This document shows positions 1-37,205 of a stretch of 64,000 bases of DNA, in pieces. The stretch covers positions 1-64,000 of the forward strand of contig JADZDM010000034.1 in the NCBI GenBank assembly GCA_020851035.1, read 5' to 3'. A model generated the notes under the pieces. That model had not been told where the DNA came from. It made no database searches and worked only from the letters and a program-made list of their open reading frames with translations. The DNA is from Gemmatimonadaceae bacterium. Its GTDB lineage: Bacteria > Gemmatimonadota > Gemmatimonadetes > Gemmatimonadales > Gemmatimonadaceae. The translations under genes were made by a program, and so were the position numbers. How positions within the stretch are numbered: position 1 is the stretch's first letter; each line of letters begins with the position of its first letter.

Positions 1-149
1 CGCCTCCGTGGAAACGACCCACTCCCATCCCCCACCGACCCACTGCCTCCGCGAGCGCAGTTCCCCCAGCGCCCTGCTCCGTGCCCTCCGTGGGCTCCGT
101 GACTCCGTGGGAACCCCGATACCCCGCGCCCCACCGACCCATCGCGCCA
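1..149. repeat. CACGGAG-type repeat, right half, with a 99-bp partial duplication
   Basis: Four CTCCGTG units lie at 77-109 with spacing of 8-9 bp and are followed by GGGAACC. Positions 45-70 carry the inner motif, whose reverse complement (GCTGGGGGAACTGCGCTCGCG-like, about 20 bases) matches the inner part of the element at 36387. A further CTCCGTG stands at 4-10. The words CTCCGTGG and CCCACCGACCCA recur exactly 99 bp apart (4 and 103; 31 and 130), so the end of the element is partly duplicated. No left arm is visible, so this is either a truncated copy or one cut by the window edge. Reading frames through this stretch look spurious. Confidence 0.75.
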
Positions 150-3984: not shown

Positions 3985-4059
3985 CCGGCATGAGGGGACG
4001 GTGCCGGGGGTTCGTGGTGCCGGGTGTGCGTGGTGTCGGTGAGCGGGCAGGGGGACTTG

Positions 4060-4213
4060 TTCTCACGGAGTCACGGAGATCACGGAGGTCACGGAGGAAA
4101 GACTTTGGGGAACAGCTCGCGCGAGGCAGCCCCCGTATCCGCGCGAGCAGTTCCTTCAAATGGCTGTTGCAGTCCTCCGTGCGCTCCGTGGTCTCCGTGT
4201 CTCCGTGGGAACC
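4060..4213. repeat. palindromic CACGGAG element
   Basis: The left arm (4063-4098) holds four CACGGAG units spaced by 1-2 bases. The right arm (4173-4211) holds four CTCCGTG units in the same rhythm, so the two arms are inverted copies about 75 bp apart. The palindrome continues inward: TTTGGGGAACAGCTCGCGCG on the left mirrors a GCGCGAGCAGTTCC stretch on the right. The right arm ends in GGGAACCTCGAT and runs straight into the 39-bp tandem array. As RNA or single-stranded DNA it could fold into one long hairpin. Confidence 0.85.
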
Positions 4214-4440
4214 TCGATCTCTCGCGCCTCACGTCACCCTCGCGTCGGAACCTCGATCTCTCGCGCCTCACGTCACCCTCGCGTCGGAACCTCGATCTCT
4301 CGCGCCTCACGTCACCCTCGCGTGGGAACCTCGATCTCTCGCGCCTCGCGTCCCCCCGCGTGGGAACCTCGATCTCGCGCGCCTCAACGTCCCCCCGCGC
4401 GGGAACCTCGATCTCTCGCGCTTCCGCAGACCCCGCGAGC
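4208..4440. repeat. 39-bp tandem repeat array, about six units
   Basis: Units begin with GGAACCTCGATCTCTCGCGC at 4208, 4247, 4286, 4325, 4363 and 4402, so the period is 39 bp with one 38-bp step. The first three units are almost identical; the last ones drift (TCACGTCACC becomes CCCCCCGC). The unit starts with the GGAACC that ends the right arm of the adjoining palindromic element, so the array probably grew from its edge. It contains no spacers and is not a CRISPR. It fills the upstream region of the thiolase operon, 94 bp before the start codon. Confidence 0.9.
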
Positions 4441-4533
4441 TCCCGACAGGGTACCCACCGGTCCGGTGGCTATCTTTCGGGTTTCCCGGTGCCTCACGCA
4501 CCCTGATCGACGGACCCCACGCGCGACCCCCAT

Positions 4534-36328: not shown

Positions 36329-36386
36329 CGGGAGCGCGGGGATTCGTGTGCTGGTGGGTGCTTCTCGTGCGCGGAGTAGAATCGCT

Positions 36387-36637
36387 GGTTCCCACGGAGC
36401 CACGGCGTGCACGGAGGTCACGGAGAACAGCACGGCTGGGGGAACTGCGTGCGCGAAGCGGCGGTCGCGCGCATTCGAGTGGTGCTGCGCGAATTCGGTG
36501 GGCAGGGCGCGCACATATCCAGTATGCTCGTGCGTGTGAGGACGATCTTTGCGCAGCACACCGAAGGCAGCGCCTCACCGCCGTTCACGAAGCCTTCCCT
36601 CCGTGCCCTCCGTGGTCTCCGTGCCTCCGTGGGAACC
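36387..36637. repeat. palindromic CACGGAG element before the GxxExxY gene
   Basis: The left arm (36387-36427) starts GGTTCCCACGGAGCCACGG and carries CACGGAG units, one mutated to CACGGCG. The right arm (36594-36637) carries CTCCGTG x4 and ends GGGAACC, the exact inverse of the left end. Inner sequence CTGGGGGAACTGCGTGCGCG matches the inner motif of the copies at 4060 and at the window start. The central 160 bp has no gene. It ends 70 bp before the GxxExxY start. Confidence 0.85.
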
Positions 36638-36707
36638 CGCGGTTCCCGGAGCCACATCGACACCAGCACCGCACGCGCAACCCGGAAATCCGGATCGCCA
36701 TCACACC

Positions 36708-37205
36708 ATGGTCCACCTGACCGACCTCGAAGTCCGCGACCTCGCTCGCATGTCAGGCATCGTCGTCGATTCCGCCCTCAGGCTTCATCGCGACCTCGGC
36801 CCCGGCCTGCTCGAGTCGGTCTACGAGACGCTGCTCGCCCGCGCCCTGCAGAAGCAGGGCCTGGATGTGCAGCGACAGGTCCCGATCCGGTTCTCTTACG
36901 ACGGCGCTGACTTTCCGGTCGGCTTCCGTGCCGACATCCTGGTCGGCCACCAGCTCCTGGTCGAGGTGAAGTCGGTGGAGCAGACACTCAAGTCGCACGT
37001 CAAGCAGGTGGTCACGTACGTGCGCCTCGCCAACCTGCCTGCCGGCCTGCTCCTGAACTTCGGCGCCCCGCTCCTCAGGCTCGGCATGAAACGCATCGCG
37101 AACCATCCGCCGCTCACCGGGACACGGCTGCCGACGCACTTCGGTGCCACGCAGCCCGTCGAGGTCGATGGTGTGCAGTACCTGCACGGGACGGGACATG
37201 GGTGA
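36708..37205 (+). CDS. GxxExxY protein, PD-(D/E)XK nuclease fold
   Basis: A 165-residue member of the GxxExxY family. The naming motif is G33-LLE36-SV-Y39 in GPGLLESVYE. A complete PD-(D/E)XK core is visible: D76 in FRADILV, E86 and K88 in LLVEVKS, and the Q100-x3-Y104 motif in KQVVTYVRLA. The family is predicted to be a nuclease but has no established role. ATG 36708 is chosen because the in-frame residues upstream are translated repeat DNA. The gene lies directly after a palindromic repeat element, which may be its substrate (inference). Confidence 0.85.
   Translation: MVHLTDLEVRDLARMSGIVVDSALRLHRDLGPGLLESVYETLLARALQKQGLDVQRQVPIRFSYDGADFPVGFRADILVGHQLLVEVKSVEQTLKSHVKQVVTYVRLANLPAGLLLNFGAPLLRLGMKRIANHPPLTGTRLPTHFGATQPVEVDGVQYLHGTGHG

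Follow-up and report, generated by a model that had tools for sequence, protein, structure and literature searches.

Background

RAYTs are single-copy, vertically kept genes, flanked by repeats that they are thought to spread (PMC3116915, PMC8049555). The repeats linked to them are also found in genomes without a RAYT, and are commoner where the gene is present (PMC3116915, PMC8049555).

The GxxExxY family (TIGR04256/PF13366) has no assigned function. In our literature search, which left ISfinder and subscription papers outside its scope, the family was mentioned only in passing and without repeats, and no description of the repeat units or of a gene-repeat partnership was found. A search combining PDDEXK with repeat terms gave nothing relevant. 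Rpn proteins, which are PD-(D/E)XK nucleases, are annotated as putative transposases.

The GxxExxY gene and its protein

The DNA analysed here, called the window throughout, is a stretch of 64,000 nucleotides from a Gemmatimonadaceae bacterium. The following features are considered:

36387..36637, no strand assigned: CACGGAG palindrome, 251 bp, with GGTTCC/GGAACC at its ends (sequence, inverted-repeat search, single-strand DNA fold, about 30 relatives in the genome)
36387..36428, plus strand: left arm of this element, GGTTCC followed by CACGGAG-type units, one of them degenerate (CACGGCG)
36595..36637, minus strand: right arm, four inverted CACGGAG units followed by GGAACC
36708..37205, plus strand: gene of the GxxExxY protein (profile matches, invariant residues, predicted structure), with a Cas4/RecB-like PD-(D/E)XK core (G33xxE36xxY39, D76, E86, K88, Q100)
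4059..4212, no strand assigned: gene-less palindrome of the CACGGAG family with four units per arm (inverted repeat, fold z -9.8)
1..115, no strand assigned: half palindrome of the CACGGAG family, truncated by the contig end

The product of the window gene, a protein of 165 aa, matched TIGR04256 (E 7.5e-34) and PF13366 (PDDEXK_3; E 1.7e-33) in profile searches. Its membership of this family is established by a score above the curated cut-off together with the GxxExxY, D, ExK, Q motif. PDDEXK_3 and GxxExxY were the only Pfam/NCBIfam matches of the protein, with no HUH (Y1) or DDE transposase domain among them. A full PD-(D/E)XK core (D76, E86, K88, Q100, Y104) had been claimed in the original prediction, made from the window alone, and all of these residues were confirmed. 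G33, E36, Y39, D76, E86, K88 and Q100 are invariant among 42 relatives, and Y104 is nearly so.

The AlphaFold model has a confident core (mean pLDDT 85.7, core mostly >90). The closest solved folds were those of Cas4 SSO0001, lambda exonuclease and MGME1, none of which reached E<=0.001, and a PDB sequence search returned no match. The window protein contains no cysteine and therefore lacks a Cas4-type four-cysteine iron-sulphur cluster.

CACGGAG palindromes in the window and in the source genome

The arms of the element at 36387-36637 pair over 47 nt (36379-36425 with 36599-36645) and are 85% complementary. When folded as single-stranded DNA and compared with shuffles, this element gave a z of -7.0 and the gene-less palindrome at 4059-4212 a z of -9.8. 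The window sequence bears out the predicted arrangement, i.e. a 251-bp inverted CACGGAG element located 70 bp upstream of an intact GxxExxY gene. It was also correctly foreseen that the copies at the window start and at 4060 are not accompanied by such a gene, as the profile search revealed four GxxExxY genes in the source genome, only one of which lies on the window contig.

As a single 7-mer, CACGGAG shows no enrichment in the window (27 occurrences vs 19.4 expected; 27 was reached in 9 of 100 shuffles). Its tandem pair, CACGGAGNNCACGGAG, is enriched, with 80 occurrences in the 4.97-Mb genome vs none for the reversed control pattern. The tandem pairs make up about 30 inverted elements, 22 of which are well formed, their arms containing up to four units each and having a sharply defined outer edge at GGTTCC. 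With four genes and 30 palindromes, a palindrome would fall within 100 bp upstream of a gene by chance with a probability of approximately 0.002. For an empty-site comparison of these palindromes the available relatives are too diverged outside genes.

Two near-identical CACGGAG palindromes (G000:C5:579015-579145 and 580174-580304) are only 1.16 kb apart, and their outer edge, GACGACGAGACC, differs from the GGTTCC edge of other copies. Directly after the 4059-4212 palindrome, at window positions 4207-4500, units of about 40 bp (GGAACCTCGATCTCTCGCGCCTCACGTCACCCTCGCGTC) are repeated in tandem, and they begin like the outer end of that palindrome.

Arm-gene-arm layout across phyla

Each of the other three GxxExxY genes of the source genome is enclosed by inverted arms built from a short tandem unit, from which it follows that the gene is normally placed inside the palindrome. 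The units of these three genes all differ (ACGCGGAAA; ACGCAAGG/GGGCGC; GCGGAGGG). CACGGAG, regarded in the original prediction as the partner repeat, indeed accompanies the window gene, but it is one of many units and is not the one used by the other three genes.

A scan of 84,980 species genomes yielded 80 GxxExxY loci from about 25 phyla, archaea included. The upstream flank of each gene was aligned to the reverse-complemented downstream flank to give an arm score. Across these phyla, a score of at least 15 was reached by 68 of 77 genes vs 16 of 884 shifted controls from the same loci, and a score of at least 18 by 54 genes vs five controls. Within Gemmatimonadota, 19 of 32 loci exceeded 99% of the mismatched-flank controls in the arm alignment. 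Arrays facing inward within 250 bp of the gene were present upstream at 62, downstream at 56 and on both sides at 55 of 71 loci. Within 100 bp, the ratio of inward to outward arrays was 104:6 upstream and 104:10 downstream. The predicted partnership, conceived after the model of RAYT and REP, is thus sustained at scale (68/77 vs 16/884), but the gene normally lies inside the arms and not beside a palindrome. The order seen in the window (palindrome, then gene) is a Gemmatimonadota variant, found also in the genomes G031, G160 and G165.

The usual arm has the form TTCACC-ACAGAGR-CACAGAGR-CACAGAG. Variants of the unit include CACGGAG, CGCAGAG, CACAAAG, CACGAAG, CACGGAT, ACAGGATG, CGCGAATT and CACAAAAA. 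At 47 of 66 loci the open frame extends through the upstream arm, which produces strings such as HRDTETQRD, TAESAESAE and HEDTK. The odd N-terminal strings of GxxExxY proteins arise because the frame runs through the arm, and the earlier supposition that repeated TED/HRG strings are translated arm repeats proved right.

Genes without arms also exist (e.g. L058, L066 and L071), and several of them fall in the Y..LGxGFxE subgroup. Three GxxExxY genes with an in-frame stop (L089, L113 and L159) still have recognisable arms and represent decaying copies. No match was found in phage records.

The median distance between arm and gene is 45 bp on one side and 29 bp on the other. Such proximity on both sides could mean that the arms have a function for the gene, for instance in autoregulation or termination as hairpins round a conserved nuclease or toxin-like gene, and that the dispersed hairpins are host regulatory sites. 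The location of the palindromes, which are intergenic where checked, with one in G065 placed 12 bp after a stop codon, is in line with this explanation. We give it hardly any credence, as there are dozens of dispersed copies of species-specific sequence, the whole unit is absent at orthologous junctions (see below), and the arms are more invariant than a terminator requires.

Dispersed hairpins and the unit of the gene

Gene-less hairpins occur by dozens in genomes carrying GxxExxY genes. Of the 16 genomes in the phylum sample that have at least five CACGGAG pairs, 14 carry a GxxExxY gene, against 34 of 134 among the others (Fisher p=1.9e-6), which upholds the expectation that repeats and genes would be associated across the phylum. 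Genomes full of repeats and lacking the gene, whose existence was to refute the original prediction, do occur at a low rate (G049), but the association otherwise holds (14/16).

Unit matching was studied in 26 genomes whose gene arms are built of CACAGAG, CGCAGAG or CACGGAG. The dispersed pairs favour the unit of the gene's own arms (median 27 matched; permutation p=1e-5), and this unit was the best of the three in 19 of the 26 genomes. Four genomes whose genes bear other units have merely 0-3 dispersed pairs over the three unit patterns. In a complete Planctomycetales chromosome, most of the arrays examined belong to hairpins of 76-124 bp with the same arm as at the gene.

In the palindromes, the units are invariant while the spacers and the loop drift, as expected for sequence-specific recognition. 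Covariation in the stem was weak (-0.34) because of this invariance, the information residing in sequence conservation and not in compensation. The nearest neighbours of palindromes came from the same species in 27 of 28 cases for G065, 7 of 8 for G161, 3 of 3 for G124 and only 9 of 20 for G031. In G031, the palindrome adjoining the gene is not the closest to the dispersed set of that genome.

A complete Planctomycetales chromosome has two inward CGCAGAG arrays separated by 3.9 kb (L321 and L322; G180:C1:908387-912316), which possibly bound a composite unit with other genes between the arms. The idea that paralogs of one genome avoid a common unit was rejected, since 14 of 77 pairs share a unit vs 10.6 expected.

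Orphan repeats are clearly common. The G049 genome (Gemmatimonadota) contains 99 CACGGAG unit pairs and no PF13366 match, and several genomes are rich in a second unit to which no gene corresponds. A matching second gene, predicted blind in five genomes, was found in one of them only (G180); the genomes in this test are mostly metagenome assemblies that are incomplete, and a single base separates CACAGAG from CACGGAG. The orphan repeat population of G049 could show the aftermath of gene loss.

Inheritance of the unit class

The existence of orphan units and of a palindrome-rich genome without the gene (G049) leaves room for the explanation that the repeats are moved or amplified by another agent, and that GxxExxY, as a passenger or parasite, lodges in the loops of existing palindromes. 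The gene of genus g11, which lies beside and not inside a complete palindrome, and the element with 8-bp duplications that captured GxxExxY fragments in G016 (both described below) would agree with it. We nevertheless consider this explanation improbable. The arm unit of a gene matches the dispersed unit, the layout is kept over about 25 phyla, the inserted unit is delimited by its arms at radA and fabD/fabG, and the unit class fits the protein phylogeny better than it fits the host phylum.

The last point comes from a comparison of repeat subtypes with the GxxExxY phylogeny, already envisaged in the original prediction. The unit class tracks the protein tree, on which it requires 14 changes vs 23 with shuffled labels (none of 300 shuffles was as low), and not the host phylum, which itself hardly follows the protein tree (38 changes vs 41 shuffled).

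Gene-bearing copies within one genome are never near-identical (57-77% nt), and a recent transposition of the gene itself is therefore not shown. Judged by their sequences, the GxxExxY paralogs of one genome are old.

Presence and absence at orthologous sites

In Sphingomonas parapaucimobilis an arm-gene-arm unit with visible arms is located between fabD and fabG, while in S. paeninsulae and Sinorhizobium meliloti the unit is absent and the two genes are directly adjacent. In Bacteroides finegoldii such a unit starts one base after the radA stop, and it is absent after radA in Parabacteroides distasonis. The units at these two junctions are about 460 bp long, and the extra DNA extends as far as the arms and no further, i.e. 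the inverted repeats mark the insertion. Phocaeicola massiliensis (L370), which has the same radA-FAD gene junction as B. finegoldii, carries about 0.8 kb of extra DNA that matches the arm-gene-arm unit over 27 bp only; this suggests repeated use of the site or a decayed copy.

In the genus g11, the gene is found at one orthologous locus in five species (G065, G031, G160, G164 and G165), and there is no gene at this locus in G115. A palindrome is present on both sides of the gene in G065 and only upstream in G031, G160 and G165; G164 has the gene and no palindrome. G065 contains dozens of palindromes while its gene stays at one locus. All four of the G065 palindromes checked fill gaps between blocks that are conserved in relatives, and these relatives have no similar palindromes. 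No target duplication was detected among 48 elements, the mean flank repeat being 4.79 vs 4.99 for mismatched flanks.

In G016, only the first 29-53 or so GxxExxY codons plus arms are contained in at least six short copies (L161-L167). Their ends are formed by a different terminal repeat (GTAGTGGGTCAGTTT / AAACTGACCCACTAC), with duplications of about 8 bp (CTACTCTG, GGCCGCTG) on either side. The possibility that these gene fragments are deletion derivatives of the GxxExxY element was rejected, as the GTAGTGGGTCAGTTT outer ends and the 8-bp duplications point to capture by a different, MITE-like family. These copies were not counted as GxxExxY mobility.

An insertion bounded by inverted arms could also be read as a small transposon of the ordinary kind, equipped with terminal inverted repeats and giving rise to MITEs, in which GxxExxY is a plain transposase and the hairpins are products of internal deletion, without any RAYT-like domestication. 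In favour of this, the limits of the insertion coincide with the inverted arms that enclose the gene, gene-less derivatives bear the same arms, and the gene tree is incongruent with the host phylum. However, target duplication was not found, near-identical gene copies were seen in none of the genomes examined, the protein has no DDE or HUH domain, and five g11 species have retained the gene at a common orthologous locus while the palindromes multiply. Such a transposon is therefore unlikely in our opinion, though it cannot be set aside.

A proposed minimal mobile element with hairpin derivatives

Based on our observations, we suggest, with a probability of roughly 0.66, that GxxExxY genes and the repeats constitute one system, composed of a minimal mobile element and its hairpin derivatives, in which the protein acts on its own arms. 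The layout, its conservation over about 25 phyla, the unit matching, the presence or absence of the unit at junctions and the inheritance of the repeat class with the protein are direct observations. Unit binding, hairpin cleavage and transposition by the GxxExxY protein are inferred, as no activity was observed, and any cutting, movement or maintenance of the repeats by the protein is likewise an inference.

The putative element would be about 0.45 kb long and would encode a protein with a PDDEXK core (about 115 residues) between two inverted arms, each usually made of three tandem 8-12-bp units (CACGGAG in the source genome). Gene-less derivatives of about 75-200 bp, consisting of an arm, a short loop and an inverted arm, would give rise to the dozens of dispersed intergenic hairpins. 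The protein is presumed to bind units of its own dialect and to cut at the base of an extruded or single-stranded hairpin. In this way the hairpins, as well as the rare unit that bears the gene, might be moved or copied at a low rate, without target duplication. The gene-bearing copy would often remain fixed in place for long, in a RAYT-like manner, while the surrounding hairpins turn over.

If this is true, a widespread family of unknown role (PF13366/TIGR04256) gains a function, and an explanation is at hand for one class of short palindromes that recur in many environmental genomes, as well as for the repetitive strings that appear where an open frame is read through an arm. Being small and specific for short arrays, the protein would also offer a new model of target recognition by PD-(D/E)XK enzymes.

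Comparison with known systems

The PD-(D/E)XK core is common to GxxExxY proteins and the Cas4/RecB nucleases, but the window protein is devoid of the Cas4 cysteine cluster. The same core is found in Rpn and other PD-(D/E)XK transposase families, whereas the window protein matches only PF13366 in Pfam.

DDE insertion sequences with their MITEs resemble the GxxExxY units in having terminal inverted arms, coding and short non-coding copies, and presence or absence at orthologous sites. In contrast to them, the GxxExxY units have neither a DDE domain nor a target duplication, their copies within a genome are old and divergent, their arms are arrays of units, and their length is only about 0.45 kb. 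If the proposed mechanism is right, they form a separate kind of mobile element and not a variant of a known transposase family.

The RAYT/REPIN system shares more features with the one described here. In both, the gene is flanked by inverted repeats, which are also dispersed extragenically as hairpin doublets; repeats are more numerous where the gene is present but occur without it too, and no target duplication has been found. Long vertical retention and a repeat class for each gene, as in RAYTs, have mixed support for GxxExxY: the g11 gene keeps its locus in five species and paralogs are 57-77% identical, but the gene tree crosses phyla; the units match statistically (p=1e-5) and their class tracks the protein tree, but only one of five blind predictions of a second gene came true. 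The differences concern the protein, which is a PD-(D/E)XK enzyme (Cas4/lambda-exonuclease-like) in one case and HUH in the other, and the repeats, since GxxExxY arms are arrays of tandem 8-12-bp units while REPs are single and of 20-40 bp. Moreover, the GxxExxY gene usually lies inside one hairpin, and the system occurs in archaea and about 25 phyla. As the proteins are unrelated, the GxxExxY system stands outside the RAYT/REPIN family.

The system appears to be a very small type of mobile DNA that has not been described before. The chances seem to us about even that it represents a class of mobile element in its own right, smaller than any other self-coding one known (about 0.45 kb, with a core of about 115 residues), which recognises inverted arrays of short units, and whose dispersed hairpins arose independently of the HUH-based RAYT/REPIN system in about 25 phyla of bacteria and archaea. 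It would then constitute a second, unrelated protein solution to the RAYT/REPIN lifestyle, and would indicate that hosts repeatedly keep a hairpin-maintaining nuclease.
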